Part shown: piece by piece, positions 11,076 to 28,755 of the stretch | Layout of the letters: each line of letters opens with the position of its first letter | How positions within the stretch are numbered: position 1 is the stretch's first letter | DNA from: Pseudobutyrivibrio sp. | GTDB lineage: Bacteria > Bacillota > Clostridia > Lachnospirales > Lachnospiraceae | NCBI GenBank assembly: GCA_017557435.1 | Contig: JAFYYR010000002.1 | Coordinates: forward strand, 1 to 64,000 | Direction: 5' to 3' | DNA: 64,000 nt | Notes under the pieces: model-generated | The model's database searches: none | Seen by the model: the letters and a program-made list of their open reading frames with translations, nothing else | Told to the model about the DNA's origin: nothing | Program-made: the position numbers and the translations under genes

Positions 11076-12101
11076 ATGTTAGAAATCTTAGATTTAAATT
11101 TAAGCGAATTTAAAAACTATGTAGTGGAAAATAAGGTTTATATATTTGGAGCAGGAATTCAGGGGCAGCGTTGGATGCATGTGCTTGAGGACTGGAATCT
11201 TAATATGTCTATAGCAGGATTTATAGATAATGATAGTGGAAAATGGGGCACAGTTCTTAGTGGAGACAAGGACAGCTATGTGGTCAATCCAATATCTGAG
11301 ATAAAAAAACAGAAAGATATATCTATATTTGTCACTAGCATACATTTCGAAGAAATATGTACTCAATTAGCGGATGAGAGCGATGATACAAATTGGAAGG
11401 TTATTGTAGCTGATAAAATAGCTGAAAAGCAGATGAAAGTATCTGATTACGAATCCGTAATAAAAGAGAGTGAGCAAGAGCTTATTCCTAGAATCATCCA
11501 TTATGCTTGGTTTGGTGGAGAAATGCCAGATGTATATAAGAGAAATATAGATGAATGGCAGAAGAGGTGCCCTGATTTTGAGTTTAAGTTCTGGAATGAA
11601 AAAAATTATGATGTGACTAAGAATCGCTATATGAGTGAGGCTTATGATTCAAAAAAGTGGGCTTTTGCATCAGATTATTTCAAACTAGATGTTATATATA
11701 ACCAAGGCGGAATTTATCTAGATACAGATATTAAAATGGTAAAAAATCCAAGCCAGCTGTTGTATCAAAAAGCGTTTGGATGCGTCGATTGTACTATGAC
11801 ATTGAATATTGGTAGTGGATTTGGTGCCGCTCCAAAAAGTAAATTGGTTAAAAAGCTTTTAGATGACTATGAGAACGCAAGGTTTATTAGAGAAGATGGT
11901 TCTCTAGATAATACTTCATGCAATACAAGACAGTATATGGTAATTAGAAAAATGGGGTTTGTACTAGGAGATAATCAGCAAAAAGTGATGGATATGAATA
12001 TTTATCCGATGATTTTTCAAGGGGCTTGTTCACATACAAAAACTATAAGAAAAACGGACAAGACATTCTGGATTCATTACGAAAATATGAGTTGGTTGTA
12101 G
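11076..12101 (+). CDS. GT32-type glycosyltransferase with N-terminal Rossmann module
   Basis: The protein has 341 residues from ATG 11076, which is preceded by GGGGA; ATG 11064 is an in-frame alternative. Residues about 20-115 form the Rossmann-like module: VYIFGAGIQG, then AGFIDNDSGKWG, then ISIFVTS. Residues about 138-341 form a glycosyltransferase sugar-binding domain of the GT32/OCH1-like type, with PRIIHYAWFGG, WAFASDYFKLDVI and the metal-binding DTD of GGIYLDTDIKM at about 217-219. It probably transfers an unknown sugar from a nucleotide donor. The next gene starts ten bases downstream. Confidence 0.85.
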   Translation: MLEILDLNLSEFKNYVVENKVYIFGAGIQGQRWMHVLEDWNLNMSIAGFIDNDSGKWGTVLSGDKDSYVVNPISEIKKQKDISIFVTSIHFEEICTQLADESDDTNWKVIVADKIAEKQMKVSDYESVIKESEQELIPRIIHYAWFGGEMPDVYKRNIDEWQKRCPDFEFKFWNEKNYDVTKNRYMSEAYDSKKWAFASDYFKLDVIYNQGGIYLDTDIKMVKNPSQLLYQKAFGCVDCTMTLNIGSGFGAAPKSKLVKKLLDDYENARFIREDGSLDNTSCNTRQYMVIRKMGFVLGDNQQKVMDMNIYPMIFQGACSHTKTIRKTDKTFWIHYENMSWL

Positions 12102-12111
12102 GAGAAGATTT

Positions 12112-13296
12112 ATGAGTTCTACATTGGTTAGTGTTATTGTACCCGTATACAATGCAGAAAAATATTTGCAAGAATGTATAGATTCTATATTGGGTCAGAC
12201 ATACGAAAATATAGAAATATTGGTTACGGATGATGGCTCAAATGACAAGAGTTATTGTATTATGGAAAACTATGCAACCAAGGATTCTAGAGTTCACATT
12301 TTTAGACAAGAAAACCAAGGCCCTAATGCAGCTAGATTAAATGGTTTAGAACATTCGAATGGAGAATATGTAATATTTGTTGACGCAGATGATTATATGG
12401 AACCTGAGTTAGTTGAGACTCTTATAAAAATAGCGAATACAAAAAATTACGATATTGTATTATCTAATGTTAAAACAAAAAGCTTAATTGGTTCTTATTA
12501 TAGTCCGGAAGTCTTTGTAGAAGGGGATTATTCTGGAAGAGAAATGTCTGAGAAGATGATAGATATAGAAAATTTCTTTCGAATGAATGTTAGGATTACA
12601 TTTTATCCGCATCTTTTAAGAAGCTCTATTATAAAGCCAATAATGGAAAACTTTGACATGAAGATATCAATGGCTGAAGATGTAGCATGTTTGATGTTGG
12701 CATGTATGGATTCTAATAGAGTTTTTAGTACTTCACAGAGTTTGTACATAAATAGGATGAATGATGATTCCTTAATGCATCAACATAAGAAAAGTTATTA
12801 TTCTTCAATGAAGCATTTATATGCTTATATGATGAGGGAATTGAGCATAAGAGATGCATCGAATGAAATATATAGGGAATTAGAGATATTAATAATTAGG
12901 GTATTACTTATATCTGGATACACAGAAGCATTTGGAAAGTTAGATGAATTGTATCCTTTTGAGGGAGTGAAAAGGGGTAGTAGAGTAATTGTATATGGTG
13001 CAGGTGCGTTTGGTATAGAGCTTATTCAGTTTTTTAAGAGTACCAATTTATATAGATTAGTTGGATGGCTAGATCGCGATTGGAGGAAGCTTTCGAGAAG
13101 CGAAGAAAAGATAGAATCACCGGAAACAATACAGAATCTAGAGTATGACTATGTGTTGATAGCTAATACAAAAGATAAGCAGATTGAACAAATAGAAGAT
13201 GCTTTAATTCAATTACATGTTGATGGAGAAAAAATAAAACGCATAGATTTAGATAAAATATGTTATAGCTATTTGCCAAAAGATTATAAAGAGTAG
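12112..13296 (+). CDS. GT2 glycosyltransferase with C-terminal Rossmann module
   Basis: The protein has 394 residues. Residues 1-230 are a classic GT-A family 2 domain with VSVIVPVYNAEKYL, TDDGSNDKS and the DAD metal site in IFVDADDYMEP near residue 93. From about residue 287, SRVIVYGAGAFGIEL, LVGWLDRD and YDYVLIANT form the same Rossmann-like module seen elsewhere in this island. Donor and acceptor are unknown. A GAGAAG site precedes ATG 12112. It is co-directional with and close to its neighbours. Confidence 0.88.
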   Translation: MSSTLVSVIVPVYNAEKYLQECIDSILGQTYENIEILVTDDGSNDKSYCIMENYATKDSRVHIFRQENQGPNAARLNGLEHSNGEYVIFVDADDYMEPELVETLIKIANTKNYDIVLSNVKTKSLIGSYYSPEVFVEGDYSGREMSEKMIDIENFFRMNVRITFYPHLLRSSIIKPIMENFDMKISMAEDVACLMLACMDSNRVFSTSQSLYINRMNDDSLMHQHKKSYYSSMKHLYAYMMRELSIRDASNEIYRELEILIIRVLLISGYTEAFGKLDELYPFEGVKRGSRVIVYGAGAFGIELIQFFKSTNLYRLVGWLDRDWRKLSRSEEKIESPETIQNLEYDYVLIANTKDKQIEQIEDALIQLHVDGEKIKRIDLDKICYSYLPKDYKE

Positions 13297-13308
13297 ATGA
13301 GGTAAAAA

Positions 13309-15009
13309 ATGAAATATGCAATATATGGAATAAATAGAGTTGCCAAAGATTTTATCTATATTTTTGAAGATCTAGATATCATATATTTATTAGATGATGG
13401 TTGCAATACGGATAGAATTTGGGGAATTAAGGTAAAAAATATAAATGAGCTCAGTGAGATAAAAAAAGAAATTGATAAAATAATCATTTGTGACTTTTAT
13501 AAGAACAAGAATGTAAAAAAAGAGCAATTAGAAAGATTCGGCTTATCGTATGGCAATGATTTTTTATTCGAAGAAGATTTATTTAAAGATTTAGACGAAA
13601 ACTATTTTGAAATTAATGGAAAAAAAATTGTTATATGGGGAACAGGGCAACGTGCTGAAATATTATACAATTGGGCCAATGAGACAAAAGTTGATTTAAC
13701 TAGAGTTACATATATAGATACATATAAAGCAGGACAAGGGTTTAAAGGACATAAAATATTAAGTCCATCGGATATACATTTCGATAACACTTTTTTTATA
13801 GTGGCAGTTGCAAGAGATCAAGAGATAATTGAATTATTGGAAAACAATGATCTTAAATGGGGAAAAGACTTTTGTACTTCTGCAGAGTTTATGAGTCGTC
13901 CGTCTTTAATGCTTAAGCAGACTATTTTTGATACTAAATGTTATGACTTTAAATGTCATACGATGTTAAATCATGCAGAAATTATAGGTGGGGGGAATAT
14001 GATTTGCTGTTGCTCCACTTATATAACTAATGCACTAGGGCGTGTTTCTGATGGTGATAGTGTGAGAACAATGTGGCAATCTATGCAACATAAAATAATG
14101 TGTTTATCTAATGAGAATAGAACATATTCGTTTTGCAGAAAAAATATGTGTCCATTTTTTATAGGTAAAAAAGATGATTGTCAGTACGATTTAAATACAG
14201 ATTACCAAAGAATGACAAAGTCACCAACAACGGTTGCAGTGGGACATGATACAACATGTAATTTATTCTGCATTACTTGTAGAGATAATATATGTGTTGA
14301 AAAAGGGAAAAAACTAGAAAAGAAGATTGGTTTATCGGATGCAATTAATAAAGAGGTATTACCAGGTTGTGAGTTCTTAATAATGGCTGGTGATGGAGAA
14401 GTATTTCTGAGTAAAGCATATGAGAGGATATATACATCTGATGCCATGAAGAATATTAAAAATTTGCGTTTTTTAACAAATGGAATGCTATTTAATGAAC
14501 GCAAGTGGAATGAAATTAGGAAATTTACAGATGCAAAAATAATGATGACGGTATCAATCGATGCAGCTACAAAAGAGTCTTATGAGTCAATTCGTAGGGG
14601 TGGTAACTTCGATATATTGCAAAAGAACATGGAATATGCAGCTCAGCTAAGAAAAAAAGGCGATTTATCGTATTTACGTTTCAATTTTGTTGTCCAAAAG
14701 ATGAATTACAAAGAAATGCCTCAATTCGTTAAATGGGGAATGGATTTAGGGATTGATGAAGTGTTCTTTACTAAAATATTAAATTGGGGAACATATACAA
14801 CTGAAGAATTCAAAGAAATTAGCATGATGGAGGAAGATGGAATTACTCCAAAACCAGAATTGGAGGAGATATTAAAAAATCCAATAATGGATGAATCAAT
14901 TGTAGATTTGGGAACAATAAGATTCAATCATTGCCCTGTAAATATCGAAGAGGTTGATAATTATTACAGGTGGGAACTTCAAAGAAAAGTTGGTGAGTTA
15001 TTTGATTGA
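13309..15009 (+). CDS. Radical SAM enzyme with two Rossmann modules and an upstream SPASM-like Cys region
   Basis: The protein has 566 residues. Residues 1-95 and about 104-195 are two tandem degenerate copies of the Rossmann-like module (YAIYGINRVA; KIVIWGTGQRAE). Residues 211-291 form a Cys-rich region (C211, C216, C233-235, C265, C276, C281, C291) with the GRVSDGDSVRTMWQS pattern of SPASM iron-sulfur domains. The radical SAM core follows, with the cluster motif C317-x3-C321-x2-C324 (CNLFCITC). The SPASM-like part thus lies before the core instead of after it. It probably makes a radical modification of a sugar or lipid-linked intermediate; the substrate is unknown. Confidence 0.8.
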   Translation: MKYAIYGINRVAKDFIYIFEDLDIIYLLDDGCNTDRIWGIKVKNINELSEIKKEIDKIIICDFYKNKNVKKEQLERFGLSYGNDFLFEEDLFKDLDENYFEINGKKIVIWGTGQRAEILYNWANETKVDLTRVTYIDTYKAGQGFKGHKILSPSDIHFDNTFFIVAVARDQEIIELLENNDLKWGKDFCTSAEFMSRPSLMLKQTIFDTKCYDFKCHTMLNHAEIIGGGNMICCCSTYITNALGRVSDGDSVRTMWQSMQHKIMCLSNENRTYSFCRKNMCPFFIGKKDDCQYDLNTDYQRMTKSPTTVAVGHDTTCNLFCITCRDNICVEKGKKLEKKIGLSDAINKEVLPGCEFLIMAGDGEVFLSKAYERIYTSDAMKNIKNLRFLTNGMLFNERKWNEIRKFTDAKIMMTVSIDAATKESYESIRRGGNFDILQKNMEYAAQLRKKGDLSYLRFNFVVQKMNYKEMPQFVKWGMDLGIDEVFFTKILNWGTYTTEEFKEISMMEEDGITPKPELEEILKNPIMDESIVDLGTIRFNHCPVNIEEVDNYYRWELQRKVGELFD

Positions 15010-15019
15010 AAGGGAAAGT

Positions 15020-16069
15020 ATGGACGTATTAAATCTAACAAAAAAAATCTATTCAAAAATGCAAGATGAAGAATCAAAAGAAATATATGGTAACAGATGT
15101 CTTTTTAATATGACTGGCGATAAAAAATATTTAATAAAGATGTTATATGCTGCTGATTCACCATACGTAGCAATTGATAGATTTATAGATAGTAACATAG
15201 ACAAAAAAATCTATATATATGGAGCGGGTGCTCGTGGTAAAAAGATATACAAGCATTTTGCAGAAAAATGTGAAGGCTTTATCGATAAAAAAATATATGA
15301 ATTAGAAGGACTATCAGGGGGCACACCTGAAGAATTTTTTAATGAAAAAATAGATGATAAAGCGGTAATAATTTCGCTTAAAAATGGCGGTGAAGCAATA
15401 GCAGACCAACTTAGTAAAATCGGGTATGAGTCAGATTCATTTTTATTGACTGCAAAATACTGGGACAAGGGTTTGGAGTATTTTGAAAACTTTATGGAAC
15501 ATTCGGATGATGAAATATTTGTTGATGCTGGAGTATATGATGGTGGCTCTACATTAGATTTTGTCAAATGGACAAATGGGAAATATAAGAAAATATATAT
15601 GTTTGAGCCATCGAAAGAGTATCATGAGCGCTTTTTTAAAAATGTTAAGGATTTAGATAACTTGGAATGGGTTAAGAAAGGTCTTTGGAGCAAGACGGAT
15701 TCTCTTAAATTTTTTGAGCGCTCAGATTCTGATATAAGTGTAGAGCAGAATTTAAATGGTGTAGTAGGTGACTATGAGTATTCTGGAGGGCAATATCAAA
15801 CGATTGATGTTACATCTTTGGATGAATATCTAGGCGATGAGAAAGTGACTTTTATAAAAATGGACATCGAGGGCTCTGAGTGTGAGGCACTAAAAGGCGC
15901 TGAGAAAATAATTAGGAAAAATAAACCTAAGCTTGCAATTTGCATATATCATAAATTAGATGATTTATGGACTATTCCAGAAATAATTATGAATTATCGA
16001 GATGATTACAAGTTTTATATAAGACATTATGGAATGGAAGCTTTAGATACTGTTCTATATGCAATCTAA
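15020..16069 (+). CDS. FkbM-family methyltransferase with N-terminal Rossmann module
   Basis: The protein has 349 residues from ATG 15020, with AAGGGA just upstream; a longer TTG-started frame would overlap the previous gene and is less likely. Residues about 55-150 contain KIYIYGAGARGKKI and CEGFIDKK, the shared module. Residues about 165-335 are a FkbM-type SAM-dependent methyltransferase: EIFVDAGVYDGGSTLDFV (SAM site), YMFEPSKEYH, and FIKMDIEGSECEALKGA. FkbM enzymes O-methylate hydroxyls on sugars and polyketides. It is likely to cap or decorate the glycan made here. Confidence 0.88.
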   Translation: MDVLNLTKKIYSKMQDEESKEIYGNRCLFNMTGDKKYLIKMLYAADSPYVAIDRFIDSNIDKKIYIYGAGARGKKIYKHFAEKCEGFIDKKIYELEGLSGGTPEEFFNEKIDDKAVIISLKNGGEAIADQLSKIGYESDSFLLTAKYWDKGLEYFENFMEHSDDEIFVDAGVYDGGSTLDFVKWTNGKYKKIYMFEPSKEYHERFFKNVKDLDNLEWVKKGLWSKTDSLKFFERSDSDISVEQNLNGVVGDYEYSGGQYQTIDVTSLDEYLGDEKVTFIKMDIEGSECEALKGAEKIIRKNKPKLAICIYHKLDDLWTIPEIIMNYRDDYKFYIRHYGMEALDTVLYAI

Positions 16070-16080
16070 TGGGAGAAGTG

Positions 16081-17580
16081 ATGGAACCAAAAGTAATTGC
16101 TTTATATTTACCACAATTTCATAGGACACCCGAAAATGATGAATGGTGGGGAGAGGGGTTTACTGAATGGACTACTGTAAGACAGGCTGAATCTTTATTT
16201 GAGGGCCATCAACAGCCTAATGTTCCGCTTAATGGAAATTATTATAATCTACTGGAAAAGGATACATTGGAGTGGCAGGCATCGTTGATGCATAAATATG
16301 GGCTATATGGTATGTGCTTCTACCATTATTATTTCAAGGATGGCAGAAAAATATTAGAAAAGCCGGCAGAAAACCTTTTGCAATGGAAGGATATTAATAT
16401 GCCTTTCTGCTTTTCTTGGGCAAATGAAACTTGGGCAAGAAGCTGGAGTAAACTACAGGATAAAAATGTATGGAGCAATTTGGAAGAAAAATCCAATAAT
16501 CAAGGCGTTAAAGACGATGGGATTTTGCTTTTACAGGACTATGGAGGGAAAAAGGAATGGATTGACCATTTTAACTATTTGCTTCCTTTTTTCAAGGATG
16601 AGAGATATATAAAAATGGATGGGAAACCTATTTTTCTAATATACAAATCCTTACAGATACCATGTCTAGTTAAGATGATTAATTGTTGGCAAAAACTAGC
16701 TTTAGATAACGGATTTAAGGGGATATATTTTATATCAGTTAACAGTAAAAATGACTCAATGGATGCTGTTATGTACCAAGAACCGCAGCATATTTTTCAG
16801 ACACAAGGATCATCTAAATATGATAAAGATAATCAGGTAGTTCAGAATGTTTTTGATTACAAGGAAACTTGCTTAAAAAGTATAACAAAGACGAAATTAG
16901 AAAATGAATATTTTTGTGCCTTCCCAGGTTATGATGACACACCTCGAAGGGGTAAGAGCGGCATGCTTTATGCTAATCGCAATCCAGAAACTTTTGGGGA
17001 CACATTGACACAAATGTTAGCCATTAGCCGGAATAGCCAAAGAGAGTTTGTATTTATAAATGCCTGGAATGAATGGGGCGAAGGTATGTATTTGGAGCCT
17101 GATGAAAGATTTGGATATAAGTATTTAGAGGCTGTAAAGAATGCTTTAGAAAATTACAAAACAATTACCATTGCAGATTCTGACTTGCAATCTGAAATAG
17201 AAGGCTATGAGAGAAAGCTTCAGCAGTATAGATCTTACTGGGAAACTTTTGATAAATGGATGACCTTGAAGGAACAAGGCAGAAAAGCCACAGATTTTTT
17301 GGAGAAGCAAGGCGTAAAGAATATTGCAGTCTATGGGCTAGGTATGATTGGAAATCATTTCCTAGAAGAATTGAGAAAATCTAATCTTCAAATAGTGTGT
17401 GGAATAGATGGGAAGGGAGATTCAATTCATATGGAATTTCCTGTTATAACCATAAATGATGATATCCCTGATGTGGATGCTATTGTTGTGACAGTTACAT
17501 ACAATTATGGTGGTATTTATGAAAAGCTGAAGGAAAAGTGTCAGGGAAAGATTTATTTGATTAATGAGTTGATGGGATAA
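16081..17580 (+). CDS. WbsX / GH99-like glycan protein with C-terminal Rossmann module
   Basis: The protein has 499 residues from ATG 16081, chosen because GGGAG (16071-16075) is five bases away; ATG 16069 overlaps the previous stop and lacks a site. Residues 1-350 match the WbsX family of O-antigen/rhamnan loci: IALYLPQFHRTPENDEWWG, EGFTEWT, FSWANETWARSW and FINAWNEWGEGMYLEP. The domain is related to GH99-like TIM barrels, and its exact reaction is not settled. Residues about 415-499 (NIAVYGLGMIGNHFL, VCGIDGKG, DAIVVTVT) are the shared module. Confidence 0.87.
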   Translation: MEPKVIALYLPQFHRTPENDEWWGEGFTEWTTVRQAESLFEGHQQPNVPLNGNYYNLLEKDTLEWQASLMHKYGLYGMCFYHYYFKDGRKILEKPAENLLQWKDINMPFCFSWANETWARSWSKLQDKNVWSNLEEKSNNQGVKDDGILLLQDYGGKKEWIDHFNYLLPFFKDERYIKMDGKPIFLIYKSLQIPCLVKMINCWQKLALDNGFKGIYFISVNSKNDSMDAVMYQEPQHIFQTQGSSKYDKDNQVVQNVFDYKETCLKSITKTKLENEYFCAFPGYDDTPRRGKSGMLYANRNPETFGDTLTQMLAISRNSQREFVFINAWNEWGEGMYLEPDERFGYKYLEAVKNALENYKTITIADSDLQSEIEGYERKLQQYRSYWETFDKWMTLKEQGRKATDFLEKQGVKNIAVYGLGMIGNHFLEELRKSNLQIVCGIDGKGDSIHMEFPVITINDDIPDVDAIVVTVTYNYGGIYEKLKEKCQGKIYLINELMG

Positions 17581-17583
17581 TAA

Positions 17584-18705
17584 ATGGTTAATTTAAAGAA
17601 TTGCAGTATCGAAAAATTATATAATATATGTAAGAAAAGGCGAATGTTTTTGTTTGGACTATCTAAAACGCTAGATTCTCAGATTGTATATAGAACACCA
17701 GATTATGACGTTAGAGAAGTCGCAGATGGAATAATAGATAATGATATTAATAAGCATGGAAACATAATAGAAACTACATCAGGAAAGCAACTAAAAATTT
17801 ATTCATTAGAAAAAATAAAAAATGGTATTAGGCCAACGGATATAGTGTTGATTACTTCTATTCATTATTGTGAATTAATAGAACAACTTGATGCAGAAAG
17901 AAGTTTTGATCAGATTGATTGTTATATATTATATTTTGTTAATGACTGTATGGATGCATTTACAGATGTGAATGTTCTCAGAAAAGCAGATCATAAATCA
18001 TATATAATTCCACCAATAATTCACTTTTGTTGGTTTGGACAGAAACAAATTCCAGAAAAATATTTAGAGTACATGAGTACATGGAAAAAGTATTGTCCAA
18101 ATTATGAGATAGTAAAATGGGATGAAACTAATTTTGATGTAAATCAGCATCCGTATACTAAATGGGCATATGAAAATGAAAAATGGCCTTTTATCTCGGA
18201 TTATGCAAGATTAAATGTATTGTTTAATCATGGTGGTATTTATCTAGATACTGATGTTGAACTAATAAAAAGCTTAGATGATTTAAGAAGATACAGGGCA
18301 TTTATAGGGTATGAATCGTATCAGATGGTGGCGACTGGCTTGGGGATAGGAGCTTGTAAAGGAAATAGTATTATAAAGGAAATGTTGGATGATTATGACA
18401 ATGTTGATATTAATCACATAAGCGATTATCCATGTACGGTATATCAGTCGAATTATCTTGAAAAAAGGGGGTTGAGAAGAAATAATACATTTCAAATATT
18501 AGACGATGGTGAATGTGTAGTACTTCCTTCGGATTATCTTTGTGGAATAAGGCTGTATACACGCGTACGACAGATTACAGAACATACAGTTTCTCTTCAC
18601 CATTATCTTGGAAACTGGGCTGGAGAGCAGCAATATACCGAGAAAGAGATTTATGATAAGAATTTGATGTTATGGAAAAGAATAGAGGAAAATATCATTG
18701 AATAA
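17584..18705 (+). CDS. GT32-type glycosyltransferase with N-terminal Rossmann module (second copy)
   Basis: The protein has 373 residues. Residues about 18-120 carry a divergent form of the shared module (RRMFLFGLSKTLD, ADGIIDNDINKHG, DIVLITSIHY). Residues about 140-373 are a GT32-like domain with PPIIHFCWFGQKQIPEKY, WPFISDYARLNVL and the DTD metal site in GGIYLDTDVELI. It is a paralogue of the 11076 enzyme with the same domain order. It is three bases from the previous gene and overlaps the next by eight. Confidence 0.85.
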   Translation: MVNLKNCSIEKLYNICKKRRMFLFGLSKTLDSQIVYRTPDYDVREVADGIIDNDINKHGNIIETTSGKQLKIYSLEKIKNGIRPTDIVLITSIHYCELIEQLDAERSFDQIDCYILYFVNDCMDAFTDVNVLRKADHKSYIIPPIIHFCWFGQKQIPEKYLEYMSTWKKYCPNYEIVKWDETNFDVNQHPYTKWAYENEKWPFISDYARLNVLFNHGGIYLDTDVELIKSLDDLRRYRAFIGYESYQMVATGLGIGACKGNSIIKEMLDDYDNVDINHISDYPCTVYQSNYLEKRGLRRNNTFQILDDGECVVLPSDYLCGIRLYTRVRQITEHTVSLHHYLGNWAGEQQYTEKEIYDKNLMLWKRIEENIIE

Positions 18706-19813
18706 AAATTTTGTATTGTTACTTACAGGAACTATAAAACCGTTTGAAGGTATTCCTTATCTAAAAATTAAGGATTATGAAACAAGAAAAAAACAATACT
18801 TGGAAACAATTCATTATTATGTGAAGAATAGGGTTTCAAATAATATAGTTTTTTGTGAGAATTCAAATGAAAATCTGGATAAAGAACTAACGCCTATTAA
18901 ATTACTTGCTCAAAAAAATAGTATTAAATTCGAATACATAACTTTTCAAGGTAGTAAAAAGACTATTAAAATCGGTAAATCATATGGTGAATCGGAAATT
19001 ATAGATTATGCAATGAGTAATAGTAGTTTAATGAAGAAAAATAAATATTTTATTAAAGTCACTGGAAGAATTATCATTACTAATATTACATTATTAAGAT
19101 TAATTATAAAGGATTATAAATCATATTTCTTAACATATGGCGATACAGTCTTAAATAACGTAGATACAAGATGTTTTTGTATGCCTATAGATGTATATAA
19201 AAGACATTTTGCAAATATATATTTAAAAAGGAATGTTAAAACGGAAACTTCCATAGAACAGTTATATGCTGAAGAAATGAAGGCTGGATATATTAACCTT
19301 TCATCTATACCAATTAGATTGAATTATACTGGCGTGTCAGGAGGACAAGGTGGAGTTTATGAAACCAGTAAAATAGAGCTGGTAATAGATTCACTTGATA
19401 AATTGATACGTACAAGATTTGGCAGTAGATTGTATTTGGAATATGGTGGTTTATTTCAAAGTGATATGATTATTCCACCAAACGTATGGAATAATTATTT
19501 CAAAATAATTGAAAATAAAAGGATAATAATATGCGGTGCAGCAATGTATGGATGTTGGTTTTTTAATACAGCAAGAAAAAAAACAAAAGTGGTTGGTTGG
19601 GCCGATAAATCTTTTAATAAAATAAAAAAAATAATGCATTATCATATTGAATCTTATGAAAGTGTCGTGACGAAAAAATTTGATTATGTAGTAATTGCTG
19701 TTTATAGCAATAAAGCATTTGAAGAGATACAAGAGATTTTAGTTAATTATGGAGTGGAAAAAAAGAAAATAATTAATGTGGGGAGTATATTCAATGAATG
19801 CATGGGCAGGTAG
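18698..19813 (+). CDS. Putative glycosyltransferase of unassigned family with C-terminal Rossmann module
   Basis: The 371-residue protein has a TTG start at 18698 supported by AGAGGA eight bases upstream, overlapping the preceding gene by eight bases. The N-terminal ~260 residues are not confidently assignable; segments such as KYFIKVTGRIIITN and DTRCFCMPIDVYK suggest a GT-A-like fold. Residues about 272-371 (KRIIICGAAMYGCWFF, VVGWADKSFNK, DYVVIAVYS) are the shared module. A glycosyltransferase role is inferred from context. Confidence 0.55.
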   Translation: MNKNFVLLLTGTIKPFEGIPYLKIKDYETRKKQYLETIHYYVKNRVSNNIVFCENSNENLDKELTPIKLLAQKNSIKFEYITFQGSKKTIKIGKSYGESEIIDYAMSNSSLMKKNKYFIKVTGRIIITNITLLRLIIKDYKSYFLTYGDTVLNNVDTRCFCMPIDVYKRHFANIYLKRNVKTETSIEQLYAEEMKAGYINLSSIPIRLNYTGVSGGQGGVYETSKIELVIDSLDKLIRTRFGSRLYLEYGGLFQSDMIIPPNVWNNYFKIIENKRIIICGAAMYGCWFFNTARKKTKVVGWADKSFNKIKKIMHYHIESYESVVTKKFDYVVIAVYSNKAFEEIQEILVNYGVEKKKIINVGSIFNECMGR

Positions 19814-19837: not shown

Positions 19838-20950
19838 ATGAAAAGGGTAGTTTTATTTGCGTATTATAATGAAAGGGGAATAGTAGATGAAGCAACTATA
19901 TACTTGCTTAAATCATTAAGAACAATTTGTGAAGCAGTGATAGTAGTAGTAAATGGAAGGATTATAGACAAAGATAAAAAACGATTAAATGAAATTGCTA
20001 GCAAAATCTATGAAAGAAATAATAGAGGTTATGATTGGGGTGCATATAAAGATTACATTTTAAAATATGGAAAAGAACTAGTAGATAAATATGATGAATT
20101 GATACTATCAAATAACTCATATTGGGGTCCTTTTTTTCCGTGGGATGAGAGCTTTGCTTTAATGGAAAAAGTTGATGTGGATTTTTGGGGAATCACACGC
20201 TATCCCGAATCACGGGGAGATAAAATAGATGAACACATTCAGGGCTATTTCATAGTAATACGTAAGAATATGTTGCAAAGCAGAGATTTTATCGAGTTTT
20301 GGAGAAAAATTAAATATGCAAATAGCTACTCTGAAGCTGTAAGGTATAATGAGATATATTTTACAACCTATAACAAAAATATTGGATACTCGTATGGTGC
20401 GTTAATTGATTTCAGAAGCGGGGATAAAAAAAGAGGATATGATTCGACATATGCAGAACATCCATTTAAAAATATCATTGACTTGAAGATTCCTATTTTG
20501 AAAAAGACAGAAGTGAATCCATTTAAAAATATAGAAGAAATACAAGAGTTCTTTGAATGGGTTGAGGGGAATTCTATGTATCCATTAGAGATATTGTTAA
20601 ATTCTTTAAAAAATATGGATGAATCTAATCTGATATCACCGTATGGTTTTTTGGAATTAGAGAATTTTTGTCGCACTCATGAAAAAATATATTTAGCAGG
20701 TGCAGGCTTTTTGGGACATAGAATAGAAAAGTATCTAAACTCGAAATCAATTGAGATAAAGGGGTTTTTGGTTACGGAAAAGAAAAAAGATGATGAACAA
20801 AATATTATTGAGTGGAATAATATTGCTTTAGAAGGAAATGAAGGAGTTATAATTTGTAGTCGAAAGTATTCCGAAGCAATATTAAAAATAGCAAAAATAA
20901 AAATATCAGAAGAAAATATACTGGTGCCAAGAAATACTCGAAAAATATAG
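19838..20950 (+). CDS. RgpF-type (rhamnan synthesis F) protein with C-terminal Rossmann module
   Basis: The protein has 370 residues from ATG 19838, which has GAGG at 19829-19832. Residues 1-230 match the RgpF family (VVLFAYYNERGIVDEATIYLL, NNRGYDWGAYKDYI, LSNNSYWGPFFP, GITRYPE, HIQGYFIVIRK). RgpF acts in assembly of rhamnose-glucose polysaccharides, apparently as a glycosyltransferase. Residues about 283-370 (KIYLAGAGFLGHRIEKYL, IKGFLVTEKK, GVIICSRK) are the shared module. No rhamnose nucleotide pathway genes are in the window. Confidence 0.85.
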   Translation: MKRVVLFAYYNERGIVDEATIYLLKSLRTICEAVIVVVNGRIIDKDKKRLNEIASKIYERNNRGYDWGAYKDYILKYGKELVDKYDELILSNNSYWGPFFPWDESFALMEKVDVDFWGITRYPESRGDKIDEHIQGYFIVIRKNMLQSRDFIEFWRKIKYANSYSEAVRYNEIYFTTYNKNIGYSYGALIDFRSGDKKRGYDSTYAEHPFKNIIDLKIPILKKTEVNPFKNIEEIQEFFEWVEGNSMYPLEILLNSLKNMDESNLISPYGFLELENFCRTHEKIYLAGAGFLGHRIEKYLNSKSIEIKGFLVTEKKKDDEQNIIEWNNIALEGNEGVIICSRKYSEAILKIAKIKISEENILVPRNTRKI

Positions 20951-20967
20951 AAAACTAGGAGAAAAAG

Positions 20968-21930
20968 ATGGGGAAGAAGATATTAGTATATGGGTTGGGG
21001 GAGAGATTTGAACGATATAGAGATATACTAACTAATTCGAATTGTTTAGGCGGTGAAATAGTGGCTTTTTGTGACAAAAATCCCAAAAAAAATATTTCTA
21101 GATATATAAAACCTCAAAATATTAAAGATTTAATAATAGATTTAGTAATAGTAACATGTGCAGAATATGAGACGGTAACGAAATATTTAAGAGAAGAGAT
21201 TGGGATAAAAGAAGAAATAATTAGCTTTTTTGATTATATGTACAAAGAATGGAATGTTGATAGGAGAGCTGTGAAATTTCTGAATCCCGCGTTTATATCA
21301 GAAGTTTTATTGGTTGATAGATTAGTAAGTATAAATAGTTTTTTGGAGATAGGAGCAAATTTTGCTCAAGATGCCACATTAGTGAAGAAACTATGCAATA
21401 TTCAAGATGATAATATAACAGTTTTTGAAGCGCATCCAGATTTATTTAAAGAAATCAGCAATAGATATAATTACAATGCGTACAATTACGCCGTATCAAA
21501 TTCTGATGGGAAAACACATTTTATCATTTGCGATATTGATAAGGTTAAAAATAATGGTATGTCAAGCTTGAAGTATTCAAAAGCCCTTTACAAAGATAAT
21601 GATTATAGTGAAGTTGAGATAGATAAGATTAGAATCGATTCTATATGGAATGATTTAAAACTTAAAGAAATTGATTTTTGCAAGATTGATGTTGAAGGTA
21701 ACACTTGGGAAGTATTAAAAGGTTTTGGCAATAAGATAAGAAATGTTAAATGTTTTCAAATAGAAGCAGATTATTACCCTTATTGGGAGAACGAAGTGTT
21801 AGCTAAAGAGATTTTTTCATTTTTAAATGAGAATGGATTTGAAATGATAAAGCTAAATGCGACTGATGATTTAAAAGAAACAGATTCTTTGTGGTTAAGA
21901 AGAGATTTAATGGGGTTTGAAAAATTATAA
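20968..21930 (+). CDS. FkbM-family methyltransferase with N-terminal Rossmann module (second copy)
   Basis: The protein has 320 residues. Residues about 3-95 (KKILVYGLGERFERY, IVAFCDKNPK, DLVIVTCAEYE) are the shared module. Residues about 115-315 are a FkbM-like methyltransferase with FLEIGANFAQDATLV, VFEAHPDLFKEI and FCKIDVEGNTWEVLKGF. It has the same domain order as the 15020 gene but is quite divergent, so the two probably methylate different positions. GGAGAAA precedes the ATG. Confidence 0.85.
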   Translation: MGKKILVYGLGERFERYRDILTNSNCLGGEIVAFCDKNPKKNISRYIKPQNIKDLIIDLVIVTCAEYETVTKYLREEIGIKEEIISFFDYMYKEWNVDRRAVKFLNPAFISEVLLVDRLVSINSFLEIGANFAQDATLVKKLCNIQDDNITVFEAHPDLFKEISNRYNYNAYNYAVSNSDGKTHFIICDIDKVKNNGMSSLKYSKALYKDNDYSEVEIDKIRIDSIWNDLKLKEIDFCKIDVEGNTWEVLKGFGNKIRNVKCFQIEADYYPYWENEVLAKEIFSFLNENGFEMIKLNATDDLKETDSLWLRRDLMGFEKL

Positions 21931-23029: not shown

Positions 23030-23049
23030 TAAATTAGTTGGAGGATATT

Positions 23050-23544
23050 ATGGTTTTAATAATAGTTTTAATTATATTGGGGATATTAGATATTTTTTTT
23101 ATTTTAAGGTTAAAAAATGTCAACTCTCAATATAAAAGAACACAATTATCATTGGAAAGAGTAAAGATAAATGAACAGATATTGAAGGAGTGGTTATTAC
23201 TAAAACAAATGGATATAAGAATATGTGATTGGTTAAGAGACAACAATATTCATAATATAGCAATTTATGGATTTGGAGATTTAGGGCAAGCATTATATAA
23301 CGAAGTAAAAAGAGACAGTATAGAATGTAGTTATATAATAGACAAAAATTATTTCAATATAGTATGTGAGGCAAAAACAATAGGGCTTGATGATATCTAT
23401 GAACTAGATGTTGATGCAATAATAATAAGTGTAATTAATTATTATGATGAAATTGAGTCAGAAATAATGAAAAGGTGTAAATTGCCCATTATCTCACTGG
23501 AAGACATCATATATGGAGTTGGAATAAATGATGACAAGCAATAG
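23050..23544 (+). CDS. Membrane-anchored stand-alone Rossmann-module protein
   Basis: The protein has 164 residues from ATG 23050, with GGAGG at 23040-23044. Residues 1-21 form a single transmembrane helix, about 22-60 a helical linker, and about 67-164 only the island's Rossmann-like module (IHNIAIYGFGDLGQALY, CSYIIDKNYFN, DAIIISVI). It has no catalytic domain. A membrane-bound copy of the module alone suggests a job in recruitment or assembly. It overlaps the next gene by 17 bases. Confidence 0.65.
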   Translation: MVLIIVLIILGILDIFFILRLKNVNSQYKRTQLSLERVKINEQILKEWLLLKQMDIRICDWLRDNNIHNIAIYGFGDLGQALYNEVKRDSIECSYIIDKNYFNIVCEAKTIGLDDIYELDVDAIIISVINYYDEIESEIMKRCKLPIISLEDIIYGVGINDDKQ

Positions 23545-24469
23545 ATTATGTATAATTACCTGGGTCTACGGGCAGAAATATCAGGGATGGATACCGTTAT
23601 ATATATATTCTATAAAAAAAAACTATCCAGAATATGATATTAAGATTTTAACCGAAAAGAAATTATCATTAAATATCGAAAGACTCATTAACAAATATAA
23701 TTTAGCATCGCAGGCAGAAATAATAAAGTTTGAAGATAAATGTATAGAATACTGTCACAATAACATAGAGAAGAGATGTTTAAGATGGTTGGTTAATTTC
23801 GAAGAATTATCTGAGAAATATGAGTATATTTATATAGGCGACATTGATATATATATTTGTGGGGAAGTGCCATCATTATTAGAGCAACATAAAAATAATA
23901 TGTTGAAATTAAGAAATAGAACTTATAGTAATGTAGTCAGATTAAGTGTCAAAGATTATATAAAAAATAAGAAAAAAATGGATAAAAGTTTATTATTTAG
24001 GCTTACTGGACTGCATTTTACCAAAACAGAACAATATTTTAAGAACGTAAAAAGAAATCAGGAAATAATAAAAAAATATTTAAAAGGAAAAAGAAATAAG
24101 ATAATAGATAAATTATTTTTTAATGATGATGAAAGATGCTTGTGGCTTGTAAACTTATTTAACGGAGAAAAATATCCCAAAGGCTCTTACCAGTTATCTG
24201 ATAAGGTTTTTAGGCCATATCATGGTGTGCATTTTGCAATTGGAAGAGAACTTAATATTTATAACAAGATGAGAGAAGAAAGTAATATTAAAGATATGCA
24301 TAAGTATTTTCTTAAATTTGTTGATGACTACAATGCAGATGAAACATTAAGGGCGTTGATATGGGATAGTCCTTTTTATATTTTGCGGCAAATATCAAAT
24401 GTATGTGTGTTTTGGGAGAGCGAATTTAGTAAAAATGAAATTAGAGATAGCAAATCCTTTTTACAATAA
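23528..24469 (+). CDS. Putative GT-A fold glycosyltransferase
   Basis: The 313-residue protein starts at ATG 23528 or the adjacent ATG 23531. N-terminal strands (LCIITWVYGQKYQGWIPLYIYSIKK, YDIKILTEKK) and a DxD-type site in YIYIGDIDIYICGEV near residue 100 suggest a GT-A glycosyltransferase, perhaps GT8-like. FRPYHGVHFAIGRE may be the acceptor end. It lacks the Rossmann module. The neighbouring genes overlap at both ends, implying tight translational coupling. Confidence 0.65.
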   Translation: MMTSNRLCIITWVYGQKYQGWIPLYIYSIKKNYPEYDIKILTEKKLSLNIERLINKYNLASQAEIIKFEDKCIEYCHNNIEKRCLRWLVNFEELSEKYEYIYIGDIDIYICGEVPSLLEQHKNNMLKLRNRTYSNVVRLSVKDYIKNKKKMDKSLLFRLTGLHFTKTEQYFKNVKRNQEIIKKYLKGKRNKIIDKLFFNDDERCLWLVNLFNGEKYPKGSYQLSDKVFRPYHGVHFAIGRELNIYNKMREESNIKDMHKYFLKFVDDYNADETLRALIWDSPFYILRQISNVCVFWESEFSKNEIRDSKSFLQ

Positions 24470-26003
24470 TAATTTTGCTAATAAAAAGATAATGATAATA
24501 ATTCCGCATCAGGATGATGAATTATTCCTATGTGGAACAATACTTGGTGCGTTAAAGCAAGTGAATTGTAAAATAAGTGTTGTGTTTGTTACCAATGGGG
24601 ATTATAGCAACTGTTTTGTTAAAAGAAAGCACGAAGCAATAAAAGCCTTAAGCAAATATGGCGTAGAGAAGAACAGCATAATATTTCTAGGCTATGGGGA
24701 TCAATATGATACACCATACGGTCATATTTATAATGCGCCAGAAGATTTGGTAGTAGTATCAAAATCAAATCATGTGCAAACCTTTGGTGAAGATAATATA
24801 TATGGAAATAACATTCATCATCAATACACTCGCAGGAATATTTATAATGATATAAAAGAAACAATACAAAAAATACATCCGGATGTATTTTTTTATAATG
24901 ATTTGGATTGGCATCCTGACCATAGAGCAGTTTCACTATTGGTAGATAGAGCATTAGGGGAAATATTAAAACAGGAAATTGTATATAGACCTATGGTATT
25001 TAAAGGATTCGTTTACTATTTGGGATGGGATGGTCGATTTGATTATACGCCTATCAATCTTTCATCTACGAAAAAGCCTAATCGGATATATAGTTGTGAC
25101 AAACGGTTTGAATTTGGAAATCCATATTTAAAATGGAATGAACGAATAAGATTTCCAGTTGATAATCATCTATTAAAAACAAAAAAAAATATTTTATTTA
25201 GAGCCATTAATCAATATCGTTTTTCCCAAAATGCAAAAAAATATTTTTTCAGCATGATGAATTCGGATGCTGTTTTTTGGAAAAAGGAAACAAATAATTG
25301 GGCGTTATCAGCTTCTGTAAATGTGAGTAGTGGAGAGGCAAGCTTTCTTAATGATTTTATGATTATTGATTCAAATAACATAGCAAAACGAAAAATGCAA
25401 TATGATGCAGGAGTTTGGTTTCCGGATAGCGACGATAAGAATCCAATGATAACCTTTATGCTGAATGAAAGTAAAGCGGTAAACAAGTTAGTCTTCTATA
25501 GAGACATATATAGTTATGGTTGTGGTGAGATATTTATAGATATTAACTTTGTAGTTGATGAAAATTATAGGACCCTGACGGAAAAATATAAGTTAAAAAT
25601 AGGAAAATATGATGTTAAAGGTGTATTATCTCTTTCACGTAGTATAAAAATAAAAGCGATAAATATAAATGTTACAGGCGAATGTAGATATGGGTTCTCG
25701 GAAATAGAAATATTGAGCGAAGAAAAGTGGAAGTTTAATAAATTGATGGTCGGAAATGATTTTATATATCATTACTATGTTACAAAAAAATGTAATAAAT
25801 TACCACTGACGGTATATCAAGGGGATAAGTTGGATGATTATAAAATAAATTTGATAGTTAGTAAAAATAATAAAGAATATGTAACATTAAAAAATGACGT
25901 ACTATATATGAAAAGTGGATTTAAAAAATGCGAATTATTATTACAAAGTTGTAACCATAGGGAAGTGTGGGATAAGGTCATAATTGAAAGAAGGGCAAGA
26001 TAA
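24435..26003 (+). CDS. PIG-L family deacetylase with C-terminal beta-sandwich
   Basis: The protein has 522 residues from ATG 24435; an upstream ATG at 24399 lies inside the previous gene. Residues about 17-200 are a LmbE/PIG-L zinc deacetylase: PHQDDE at 24-29 (usual form PHPDDE) and the metal-binding HPDH at 160-163. The family removes N-acetyl groups from GlcNAc-type sugars. Residues about 310-430 look like a discoidin/F5-8C-type beta-sandwich ending in YGFSEIEIL, which may bind carbohydrate. The last ~90 residues are unassigned. It probably de-N-acetylates a sugar of the glycan. Confidence 0.82.
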   Translation: MKLEIANPFYNNNFANKKIMIIIPHQDDELFLCGTILGALKQVNCKISVVFVTNGDYSNCFVKRKHEAIKALSKYGVEKNSIIFLGYGDQYDTPYGHIYNAPEDLVVVSKSNHVQTFGEDNIYGNNIHHQYTRRNIYNDIKETIQKIHPDVFFYNDLDWHPDHRAVSLLVDRALGEILKQEIVYRPMVFKGFVYYLGWDGRFDYTPINLSSTKKPNRIYSCDKRFEFGNPYLKWNERIRFPVDNHLLKTKKNILFRAINQYRFSQNAKKYFFSMMNSDAVFWKKETNNWALSASVNVSSGEASFLNDFMIIDSNNIAKRKMQYDAGVWFPDSDDKNPMITFMLNESKAVNKLVFYRDIYSYGCGEIFIDINFVVDENYRTLTEKYKLKIGKYDVKGVLSLSRSIKIKAININVTGECRYGFSEIEILSEEKWKFNKLMVGNDFIYHYYVTKKCNKLPLTVYQGDKLDDYKINLIVSKNNKEYVTLKNDVLYMKSGFKKCELLLQSCNHREVWDKVIIERRAR

Positions 26004-26045
26004 TAGAATAATCATGCGCTAACAGTTCTATTGGAGGATTAGAAG

Positions 26046-26729
26046 TTGCGAAAAGTAATAATAATGTTAATAAGATGGAATTTGATTATTAGTCATCATT
26101 TGATGAGATTTGTTCACCATAGGACATTGGATGAAGCAACAGATAGAGTTTATATAGATAAATATGTTGAATCCTGTATCGAATATATAAAAGAGAGTCC
26201 GAATATATTGGAATTTGATGGGGGAAAAGTCTATGCAGAAAGGATATTACAAAAGAGAGGTGGTATTGTTACATACGCTACTAAGCGCGGCAGAATAGAA
26301 CATAATAACAATATAGGTTTAGAATTAGATTTAAACATAGATAAAAAATATTCTGGTACTCAAAAATATGATGTGATAATAGCTACGCAAGTAATTAGTT
26401 CTTTTGTGGATCCAATTTCAGTTTTAATGATTTTAAGGGAAATGCTTGTAGAAGATGGATTATTAATAATTACAACATCAGGTCCTTCATATCCTAGAAT
26501 TAGGGGGCAAGTAAATTTTTTTTCAAAAGAGGGATTAGTCAAAGTTTGTAGCTCAGTATTTACGCGTAAAAATATATTTAATGTTCAATCATATGGGGAC
26601 TATTTATCTTCAATTTGCATGATGAATTATGTAGATAAACGTATTTTTATGAATCATGAAGTTGAAAATAGTGATTATAAGCACGATGTGATAGTTGGTT
26701 GTCTGTGTAAAAATTATAGAAATATTTAA
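26046..26729 (+). CDS. Divergent class I methyltransferase-like protein
   Basis: The 227-residue protein has a TTG start supported by GGAGG at 26033-26037. The later methyltransferase motifs are visible (YDVIIATQVISSFVDP, LREMLVEDGLLIITTSG, VNFFSKEGL), but the usual glycine-rich SAM motif is replaced by LEFDGGKVYAERIL. It could be an active divergent enzyme or a degenerate partner. The region is very AT-rich, like its neighbours. It is 42 bases from the PIG-L gene. Confidence 0.6.
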   Translation: MRKVIIMLIRWNLIISHHLMRFVHHRTLDEATDRVYIDKYVESCIEYIKESPNILEFDGGKVYAERILQKRGGIVTYATKRGRIEHNNNIGLELDLNIDKKYSGTQKYDVIIATQVISSFVDPISVLMILREMLVEDGLLIITTSGPSYPRIRGQVNFFSKEGLVKVCSSVFTRKNIFNVQSYGDYLSSICMMNYVDKRIFMNHEVENSDYKHDVIVGCLCKNYRNI

Positions 26730-26749
26730 TTTGCTGAGGAAAATATTGT

Positions 26750-27793
26750 ATGTATAAAATAGTTGTATTTGGAGCTGGAGCAAATGGATTAAAGTTTATT
26801 AATAATAAGCAGGAATATTTTGAGACATTGATTATTGCTGTAATAGATAATAATAAAAATCGGTGGGGAGATTGTTTGGAGAATTATTTTGTGGAACCGC
26901 CTCAAAATATTAACAATAAACAATATGACTATGTAGTAATTACGACGTCTAATGGAGACAGTAAAAGCTCAATTCGGTCACAGTTAAAAAAAATGGGAGT
27001 ACCGGATGAAAAAATTTATGATATAGAAGAATATAGGCGTAAAGTATTTGTTGATAATATATATTTGACAAGAAATTATTTACCAAAGAAAAAAACTACA
27101 TTAAATGGGAAAAAAATAATTATTTATTCTGCAATAATGGGAGATTATGAAGGAATAAAGGATATAGAAAAGAATTGGCAGCAGTATGATAATATTGATG
27201 TGAAATATATATTCTTTACAGACAACGAAAAAATATCGTCTAATACGTGGGATATAAGAGTGATTAAAGATGGTAGTCTATCTAGTAGGTATTTAAGCAA
27301 ACATATAAAGCTATTCCCAGAATTATATTTGGAAAAATGTGATTATTCGATATGGGTTGATGGAAAATTTCAAATAGTTGGTAATTTAATTGAGTATCTA
27401 GAACAATATTTAAGAAATAGCACAATGTTATTCTTTCCACATTTTGCGAGGAAAGATATATATGAAGAGGCAAAAACCTGTATTGAAATGGGTGTAGGAA
27501 AAAAAGACGATATAATAAGACAAATTGAATATTATAAGACGGATGGATTTCCCGCAAATAGTGGATTATATGAGGGTGGTTGTATAGTAAGAAAATATGG
27601 AGATAGTGAAGTTAAATATTTAATGAAACAATGGTGGGACGAAATAATGAAGTTCTCCTACAGAGATCAGATTAGCTTACCATATATTTTATGGAAAAAT
27701 AACTTTATCCCAGATATAAGCGGCGAGGATTTATATAATAATAAATGGTTGAGATGTTGTAGAAACTTTAATATAAAGGAGGAAATAAAATGA
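26750..27793 (+). CDS. DUF616-type glycosyltransferase with N-terminal Rossmann module
   Basis: The protein has 347 residues. Residues 1-105 (YKIVVFGAGANGLKFI, IIAVIDNNKNRWGD, YDYVVITTS) are the shared module. Residues about 120-340 match the DUF616 (TOD1/MUCI70-like) glycosyltransferase domain: IIIYSAIMGDYEGIKDI, YIFFTDNE, SRYLSKHIKLFPELYL, CDYSIWVDGKFQI. It overlaps the next gene by an ATGA. Confidence 0.82.
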   Translation: MYKIVVFGAGANGLKFINNKQEYFETLIIAVIDNNKNRWGDCLENYFVEPPQNINNKQYDYVVITTSNGDSKSSIRSQLKKMGVPDEKIYDIEEYRRKVFVDNIYLTRNYLPKKKTTLNGKKIIIYSAIMGDYEGIKDIEKNWQQYDNIDVKYIFFTDNEKISSNTWDIRVIKDGSLSSRYLSKHIKLFPELYLEKCDYSIWVDGKFQIVGNLIEYLEQYLRNSTMLFFPHFARKDIYEEAKTCIEMGVGKKDDIIRQIEYYKTDGFPANSGLYEGGCIVRKYGDSEVKYLMKQWWDEIMKFSYRDQISLPYILWKNNFIPDISGEDLYNNKWLRCCRNFNIKEEIK

Positions 27794-28755
27794 AAAAAGT
27801 TGTTATTTATGGACTTGGAAAGGCTTTTGATAACGACTTTTTTTTGTATGAGCAACTACCAAAACTTCGTGAAAAATATGATGTTATTTGTGGCTGTGAT
27901 AAAATATATAAAAATATAGAAAAATATGGGATAGATTATATAGAGAGAGGCGAGCATTTAAATAAATACGACAAAATTATTGTGACAAGCAATAGATATT
28001 ATAGAGAAATACGAACGGATTTAATTGTAAATTTTGGTATTGATTTTAAAAAAATAGTATCAATTGAAAACGAGTGGGCTACTATTTTGGGAGAATGTTT
28101 TAATGCTGAGTTTTTTATCAAAAAAAATGGCGTAGAGATAGGAGGACCATCCGATATTTTTGATACTATCTATAGGAAGGTAAAGACTTGCGATGGAGTA
28201 AATTTCCAGAGTAGTACAGAATGGTGGATAGATAGTGGGAAAGGTTATAAATATAAAGATAAATATTTGGGGAAAGTTATTATAGAAGACGCAGTAAATA
28301 TGTCGTCTATAAAGGGGGAACAGTATGATTTTTGTATCTCATCAAATAATCTTGAACATATTGCAAATCCACTTAAAGCAATACAGGAATTCAAAAGAAT
28401 AGTTAAGAAAAATGGATTAATATTAATTGTGGTTCCCAAAAAAGAGAGTAACTTTGATCATAGACGTTCAGTTACGAAAATGGAACATATTATTGATGAT
28501 TATTTAAATGATATATCCGAGGAGGATTTAACACACTTAGATGAAATCATGAAACTTCATGATTTTGATATGGATATAGGCGTTAGTAGTTCAGAAAATT
28601 TTTATGACAGGGCAATTAAGAATTATGATAACAGGTGCTTACATCAGCATGTATTTGATGAACAATTGTTGATAGAAATTTTTAAATACATGGATATTAA
28701 TATTATCAAATCGGGGGCACTTTATTATAATTATTATATTTTAGGCGAAAAATAG
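27790..28755 (+). CDS. Class I methyltransferase with N-terminal Rossmann module
   Basis: The protein has 321 residues. Residues 1-95 (KKVVIYGLGKAFDNDFF, VICGCDKIYKN, DKIIVTSN) are the shared module. Residues about 100-320 resemble type-11 methyltransferases of glycan loci, with YDFCISSNNLEHIANPLKAI and RIVKKNGLILIVVPKK. Motif I is weak. It starts within an ATGA overlap, so it is translationally coupled to the DUF616 gene. It is the last of the tightly packed genes. Confidence 0.75.
   Translation: MKKVVIYGLGKAFDNDFFLYEQLPKLREKYDVICGCDKIYKNIEKYGIDYIERGEHLNKYDKIIVTSNRYYREIRTDLIVNFGIDFKKIVSIENEWATILGECFNAEFFIKKNGVEIGGPSDIFDTIYRKVKTCDGVNFQSSTEWWIDSGKGYKYKDKYLGKVIIEDAVNMSSIKGEQYDFCISSNNLEHIANPLKAIQEFKRIVKKNGLILIVVPKKESNFDHRRSVTKMEHIIDDYLNDISEEDLTHLDEIMKLHDFDMDIGVSSSENFYDRAIKNYDNRCLHQHVFDEQLLIEIFKYMDINIIKSGALYYNYYILGEK

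Follow-up and report, generated by a model that had tools for sequence, protein, structure and literature searches.

A Rossmann-type module shared by unrelated enzymes of a Pseudobutyrivibrio glycan island and related loci

Module copies in the island

Why should glycosyltransferases, methyltransferases and a radical SAM enzyme that are encoded side by side carry the same small domain? The question is raised by a glycan island in Pseudobutyrivibrio sp. (GenBank assembly GCA_017557435.1), located in the stretch of DNA analysed here (the window), which comprises positions 1-64000 of contig JAFYYR010000002.1 within a 2.84-Mb genome of 29 contigs. The island (11040-28755) is spanned by 16 same-strand open reading frames (ORFs), as judged from the ORF list and translations; a previous sequence-only reading had the first of these starting at 11076, and the called ORF begins at 11040. 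When all translations of this region were read, 12 of the 16 ORFs were found to bear a Rossmann module of about 95 residues, in a total of 13 copies:

11097..11435, forward strand: module 1, N-terminal in a GT32-type protein (ORF 11040-12101); profile match, with Gly_transf_sug in the remainder
12946..13287, forward strand: module 2, C-terminal in a GT2 protein (ORF 12112-13296); profile match, with weak PglD_N and C2185-like_N matches
13309..13599, forward strand: module 3, first of a tandem in the radical SAM protein (ORF 13309-15009), with a degenerate GxG; profile match, leave-one-out
13597..13899, forward strand: module 4, second of the tandem in the same radical SAM protein (ORF 13309-15009); profile match, leave-one-out
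15179..15478, forward strand: module 5, on the N-terminal side of an FkbM methyltransferase (ORF 14954-16069); profile match, Pfam
17290..17577, forward strand: module 6, C-terminal in a WbsX protein (ORF 16069-17580), of the same subtype as the membrane-anchored module; profile match
17608..17967, forward strand: module 7, N-terminal in the second GT32 protein (ORF 17584-18705), degenerate; profile match, fails leave-one-out, fold prediction and VIA matches
19490..19804, forward strand: module 8, C-terminal in an unassigned protein (ORF 18698-19813); profile match, leave-one-out
20654..20938, forward strand: module 9, C-terminal in an RgpF-type protein (ORF 19832-20950), with Val in place of Asp; profile match
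20968..21246, forward strand: module 10, N-terminal in the second FkbM protein (ORF 20968-21930); profile match
23221..23520, forward strand: module 11, stand-alone, following a transmembrane (TM) helix and a coil in a 168-residue protein (ORF 23038-23544); profile match
26750..27049, forward strand: module 12, N-terminal in a TOD1/DUF616 protein (ORF 26750-27793), residues 1-94 modelled; profile match, Pfam, model
27790..28092, forward strand: module 13, N-terminal in a methyltransferase (ORF 27790-28755); profile match, Pfam

The placement of the module thus varies, being N-terminal, C-terminal, tandem or, once, alone after a TM helix. The remaining parts of the 12 carriers are mutually unrelated, and include on the basis of Pfam two GT32 proteins, one GT2, one radical SAM, two FkbM, WbsX, RgpF, TOD1/DUF616 and class I methyltransferase proteins, one unassigned protein and one TM protein. 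The sequence-only reading had claimed a single module on at least 11 island proteins, which proved to be an understatement; the 11 carriers that it listed were all confirmed, and the TM protein at 23038 was missing from its list. Four ORFs lack the module (21938, 23528, 24399, a PIG-L protein, and 26046), and outside the island the top match to the module profile in the same genome has an expectation value of only E 9.5e-4.

Homology, fold and spread

Several lines of evidence support a common ancestry and a single fold for these modules. Profiles built with one copy left out recover 12 of the 13 window modules, while shuffled sequences fail, and the profile search that the sequence-only reading had proposed as a check also found the module in other islands. 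The structure model of module 12 (residues 1-94 of ORF 26750; pLDDT 94.8) is a five-stranded beta-alpha Rossmann half with a GxG loop after strand 1 and an acidic residue at the end of strand 2, the features that define the superfamily. Its structural matches are Clostridium acetobutylicum 2g6t (the best), the FlaA1-type protein 3nkl, which we take to belong to PF13727, Rex and the WbaP accessory domain, with good fold scores also from SCS-alpha. An 83-row module profile matches 3nkl_A (E 9e-12) and VioB (E 7e-6), in agreement with the earlier proposal of one homologous module related to FlaA1/PglD-type domains.

In 40 stretches from 27 relatives and the window, an iterated profile matches 221 of 583 ORFs; dropping identical and contained sequences leaves 222 modules in 217 proteins, of which 12 proteins are from the window. 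Module groups from 16 catalytic clusters match one another at a probability of at least 90% in 102 of 120 pairs (median 97.1, lowest 2.7), a result that is favoured by the iterated hidden Markov model gathering of the relatives, although the 13 window copies were gathered otherwise. At the same 90% level, control profiles for SDR and Gfo/Idh proteins each match 0 of the 16 groups, with medians of 5 and 11 and highest values of 83 and 89. Ordinary Rossmann similarity was rejected as an explanation on the basis of these lower controls and the failure of the shuffles.

The most conserved feature of the module is the pocket motif, with its two glycines preserved in 94% and 93% and its Asp in 84% of the 222 copies; both glycines and an Asp or Glu are present together in 162. 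A column table of the 222 copies contains nothing conserved that stands out beyond the glycines, hydrophobic positions and this pocket, and pairwise identity to the first row of the module alignment is 14-33%. Of the 13 window copies, 10 keep both glycines of the GxG and 12 have the Asp with which strand 2 ends, so that the 'GAGxxG...FIDN' motif read from the translations is not universal. In Pfam scans of the window proteins, no module attains a Pfam cut-off, which leaves something for annotation to gain from the family.

Pfam matches of the 205 non-window carriers include, among the matches listed, 49 GT2, 20 radical SAM, 14 GT4 and 8 GT9 domains and several methyltransferase families, with 7 CTP_transf_like, 5 RgpF and 5 TagF-like matches among the first 104 of these carriers, and GT32, WbsX, HAD, DUF1919, DUF4422, pyruvyl transferase and MptE-like families besides. 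By our own grouping of the Pfam names listed, about 18 catalytic families bear the module, window included. In a phylum sample of 398 genomes, 22 besides the window's own have at least three module matches at 1e-8, and 20 stretches with matches from 16 of the sampled genomes contain 2 to 10 module ORFs each. The raw count of 139 of 398 genomes with a match overstates the spread, because single matches to ORFs of about 210-240 residues are probably Rex, judging by the Rex matches of the profile.

Island-level use, and gain and loss within enzyme families

WbsX was used as a probe in named genomes, where at least 593 stretches matched and 572 were confirmed; the results below are for the best 80 loci, with flanks of up to 8 kb. 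In the 20 loci with a module-bearing WbsX, 116 of 236 other flank ORFs carry the module, versus 28 of 685 in the 60 loci with a module-less WbsX (two of which, L174 and L175, had no WbsX ORF assigned); therefore, these islands either put the module on roughly half of their genes or make hardly any use of it. At least two module neighbours are found in 19 of 20 versus 4 of 60 loci (Fisher p 1e-13), the module-bearing loci not being fully independent, since they seemingly form one group of relatives, mostly titled Lachnospiraceae. Moreover, 26 of the 28 module neighbours of module-less WbsX proteins are confined to four loci. Directly after WbsX, L142 and L186 have a separate TM-plus-module ORF and L152 has a homologous TM ORF that falls below the threshold; in L167, a module ORF precedes WbsX. 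These comparisons support module use as a trait of whole islands.

Repeated gain and loss of the module within catalytic families is likewise supported. In a tree of 93 GT2 and GT32 proteins, module presence changes at least 15 times, compared with 18-28 in shuffles. The module tree follows the catalytic partner, with 46 changes versus 86-93 in shuffles (156 rows). All such change counts are rough, and trees built on about 82 aligned module residues have poor resolution. Since module trees hardly group by genome, the idea that the copies arose inside the island by recent duplication or gene conversion was rejected.

A membrane-anchored stand-alone form

The 168-residue protein at 23038 consists of nothing but a TM helix, a coil and the module. 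It belongs to a recurrent small family of about 155-175 residues, with a TM helix that is often Gly-rich, a coil and a module, which is present in many named module islands (e.g. L142:9125-9601, L186:9071-9595 and L123:3361-3849).

Comparison with known systems

The N-terminal domain of 2g6t is presumably that of Pfam family C2185-like_N (PF22674), where it occurs with DUF1919. The window modules remain below the PF22674 cut-off, with four matches in the window's own genome, none over the cut-off and the best (at 26753) reaching 22.4 of 27 bits; the cut-off is exceeded by one relative's carrier, L054:18167-19036. In the sugar C-methyltransferases KijD1 and MtmC, the C-terminal domain (PF08484) is part of a single methyltransferase family, whereas the window module is spread over unrelated enzymes. 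The nucleotide-sugar-binding N-terminal domain of PglD, NeuD and VioB (PF17836) is similar to the module in fold and motif, and PF17836 is matched (E <=1e-4) by 9 of the 205 carriers from relatives. Unlike PglD and NeuD, however, the 12 window carriers have no hexapeptide acyltransferase (beta-helix) Pfam match, and NeuD_NnaD is matched only at E 0.0079 (15.8 bits of 160.8), by the radical SAM protein.

In large phosphoglycosyl transferases such as WbaP and in dehydratases of the PglF/FlaA1 type, the accessory domain (PF13727, CoA_binding_3) is preceded by a four-TM bundle, and two enzyme classes have it (PMC10942596), in contrast to the roughly 18 mostly soluble classes that bear the module here. 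Scans of the window proteins gave no PF13727 match up to E 1, in a search where HMMER filters drop most weak matches. The WbaP study assigns dimer formation to a beta-hairpin (PMC10942596); there is no hairpin in the 94-residue module model, which was perhaps cut too short. In Clostridium flagellar islands and the C. difficile type A locus, too, flagellar genes have glycosyltransferases and methyltransferases close by, along with a TagF-like transferase and a proposed cytidylyltransferase, but no shared Rossmann module is described in the available portions of the two reports, the former a survey of 2026, and the word 'rossmann' does not occur in their main texts (PMC13317340, PMC10714395). 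Searches of open-access papers yielded, by title and abstract, no description of a module shared across the enzymes of a glycan island. While the fold and superfamily are known, the pathway-wide and island-wide use of one module appears to be new.

Possible targets of the islands

Flagellar genes are located 14-20 kb downstream of the window island:

42881..49340, forward strand: flagellar genes (FlgN-like, two FlgK, FlgL and FliW), named by reading translations

Relatives of the FliW ORF are present in all 24 of 24 module genomes, lying no more than about 20 kb from the closest module in six (the window's among them) and at a distance or on another contig in 18. A Maf-type gene (PF01973) was found in 14 of 40 module genomes, and in 13 of these it is on the island contig, inside or within 11 kb of the island in 12 and about 22 kb away in one, with the fourteenth on another contig; three of the 14 matches (G008, G012 and G050) are weaker and divergent. 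A profile search gave no Maf match anywhere in the window's own genome. Two flagellin ORFs adjoin the island of L102. Among relatives outside the window's genus, at least two module matches occur in 9 of the 50 that are flagellated and in 0 of the 21 that are not (one-sided p ~0.03). All 22 phylum-sample genomes with three or more matches, the window's own excluded, are flagellated, but so are 322 of the 398, and some few of the 22 may owe their matches to Rex alone. On its own, this co-occurrence is weak evidence for flagellin.

According to a simple hydropathy script, ORFs with at least six TM segments account for 0 of 309 in the 24 named module islands versus 76 of 690 in 56 module-less loci, and for 25 of 185 in the 16 Lachnospiraceae among the latter (chosen by record title, without the Robinsoniella locus L155, and including two with one module ORF each). 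An ORF with at least five TM segments is present somewhere in 7 of the 40 stretches from relatives versus 0 of 20 from the phylum sample. Just upstream of the window island, 8228-9568 encodes a TagD-like cytidylyltransferase fused to a Gfo/Idh oxidoreductase, and its neighbour at 9590 is a TagF-like transferase; the two together have the appearance of a CDP-polyol or CDP-alcohol branch serving parts of the glycan that are joined by phosphodiester links. In the pathway proposed for C. difficile type A, a cytidylyltransferase and a TagF-like transferase act on flagellin (PMC10714395). Together, the positions of FliW and Maf, the flagellin ORFs of L102, the PseG-like ORF described below, the few TM ORFs and the upstream 8228 and 9590 genes fit soluble flagellin glycosylation.

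Two observations weigh against flagellin. Flagellar or Maf genes were found in 0 of the 24 named module islands when the fetched flanks (up to 8 kb) were searched with single-sequence queries, and a Wzm-like permease is located inside the module islands of two of the 40 relative stretches (L065:8822-10835 and L072:6699-8709), whereas a flagellin island would be expected to have no machinery for lipid-linked export (Wzx/Wzy or an ABC exporter of the Wzm/Wzt kind). The L072 permease adjoins a Wzt-like ATPase, as read from its translation, and the L065 permease an ORF of like length, and the glycans of these two islands may be exported. A strict limit of the module to flagellin islands was rejected on account of these permeases, the empty flanks and the presence of FliW nearby in only 6 of 24 genomes. 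Because the Maf and TM evidence has to be set against the permeases and the flanks, flagellin is probably the target in many islands, including this one, and not in all.

A PseG-like ORF beside the island (33753-34553) matches NCBIfam PseG at 3e-40, below the cut-off, with the first 84 profile positions missing. This ORF lacks the N-terminal part and abuts an opposite-strand transposase-like ORF (32174-33775; IS3 type by reading).

Possible function of the module

The reading that is preferred here, at a probability of about 45%, is that the module is a portable accessory domain of the CoA_binding/Rex/WbaP-DUF/PglD_N type which, on most soluble enzymes of a surface-glycan (in many cases flagellin) island, would coordinate the pathway via nucleotide-dependent self-association. 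It is proposed because of the analogy to the WbaP domain, with the conserved pocket, island-level use and the anchored copies in its favour. In the WbaP study, most contacts between the two subunits of the dimer were located in this domain; UMP, UDP and UTP stabilised it, UDP-Gal destabilised it, and the enzyme was inhibited by UMP (PMC10942596). For a myxobacterial relative, models and activity tests led to the proposal that a response regulator contacts this domain, favours the dimer and activates the enzyme (PMC12802240). By the same logic, the GxG/Asp pocket of each module would take up a nucleotide or nucleotide-sugar, and the modules would self-associate as the WbaP domain does, so that a shared signal could assemble the pathway enzymes or turn them up or down. 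Degenerate copies might act as structural partners, and the TM-anchored copy might tether part of the enzyme set to the membrane in some islands. A more specific version, which is possible although distinctly doubtful, would have the module as a self-associating, nucleotide-gated tag on most enzymes of an island: a common metabolite signal would bring glycosyltransferases, methyltransferases, radical SAM enzymes and cytidylyltransferases together and switch them in concert, with the anchored copies as hubs in some islands.

A number of results count against pathway coordination by self-association. The module profile also matches ordinary NAD(P)-enzymes, such as the amine dehydrogenase 7xdu (E 1e-8), the top fold match (2g6t) is titled uncharacterized, and the pocket motif is incomplete in 60 of 222 copies (27%). 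At E 1e-8, anchored stand-alone modules are present in only 4 of 40 module genomes (5 if one without the TM part is counted); a membrane scaffold is therefore not general, and a universal one was rejected. Finally, similarity between modules is not clearly higher within a genome (178 changes versus 178-193 in shuffles; 222 rows), which speaks against a strain-specific docking code.

Two rival explanations account for much of the same evidence. The module could be a pure nucleotide sensor, a feedback switch through which a by-product such as UMP, UDP or CMP inhibits or activates each enzyme without any role in assembly; the pocket residues are the best conserved part of the module, and the WbaP study proposes a 'one-size-fits-all' regulation (PMC10942596), but a sensor is unlikely given the incomplete pockets and the copies without a recognisable catalytic domain, some of them behind a TM helix, which have nothing to regulate. 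The module might instead hold a substrate that the enzymes have in common, be it flagellin, a lipid-linked glycan or a nucleotide-linked intermediate, and thereby bring the island enzymes to the same growing glycan. Such binding would explain the presence of one module across all chemistries of an island, and Maf and flagellar genes are near in part of the genomes. PglD-type and KijD1-type relatives, structures of which are among the fold matches, moreover bind their nucleotide-sugar substrate. However, the lack of any standout conserved column beyond the glycines, hydrophobic positions and pocket, and the absence of flagellar and Maf genes from the fetched flanks of the 24 named module islands, make this less likely still than a sensor.

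Two further alternatives are less probable. Low identity, attachment at either end and frequent gain and loss would be expected of a folding or solubility spacer, or of a domain spread by recombination hot-spots with no role of its own in the pathway, yet either is improbable in view of pocket residues that are conserved over 222 copies and of the nearly all-or-none use per island in unrelated enzymes. Least probable by far is a module intrinsic to each enzyme family with the likeness of any Rossmann domain. In its favour are how widespread the superfamily is, the good fold scores of Rex and SCS-alpha and the profile matches of Rex and an amine dehydrogenase; against it, the SDR and Gfo/Idh control profiles score lower, and elsewhere in the same genome the best match has E 9.5e-4. 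The sequence-only reading had named unrelated folds, or domains intrinsic to each family, as grounds for abandoning a shared module; instead, WbsX exists both with and without the module, as do other catalytic families, and at least 15 module changes are seen on the GT2/GT32 tree, the structure models covering two of the modules.

What the accessory Rossmann domain does in WbaP and other glycan enzymes has been discussed for two enzyme classes (PMC10942596); here, a domain of this kind is present on about 18. Many module classes are present within single islands while sister loci have no module, which provides a natural experiment, and small soluble modules are suited to tests of ligands and partners. 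Islands whose modules assemble the enzymes would be candidates for the construction of synthetic glycosylation assembly lines, and nucleotide-sensing modules would illustrate the throttling of a whole sugar pathway at once. A nucleotide-gated tag, if real, would be the sugar-pathway counterpart of the docking domains in polyketide assembly lines.

Other features of the islands

Three ORFs in or beside the island (23528-24469, 18698-19813 and 30181-31530) have no Pfam match over the cut-off and no NCBIfam match, and are possibly glycosyltransferases. The PIG-L deacetylase (24399-26003), which carries no module, has a long C-terminal part without a Pfam match. The G+C content of the island is 25-38% in 2-kb steps versus about 34-43% across the rest of the window, and from 10001 to 30000 (minimum 25%) it is below that of the flanks, as in horizontally acquired DNA. 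In one relative with a module island, a phosphoenolpyruvate mutase is fused to a cytidylyltransferase (L059:138-1454), pointing to phosphonate decoration.

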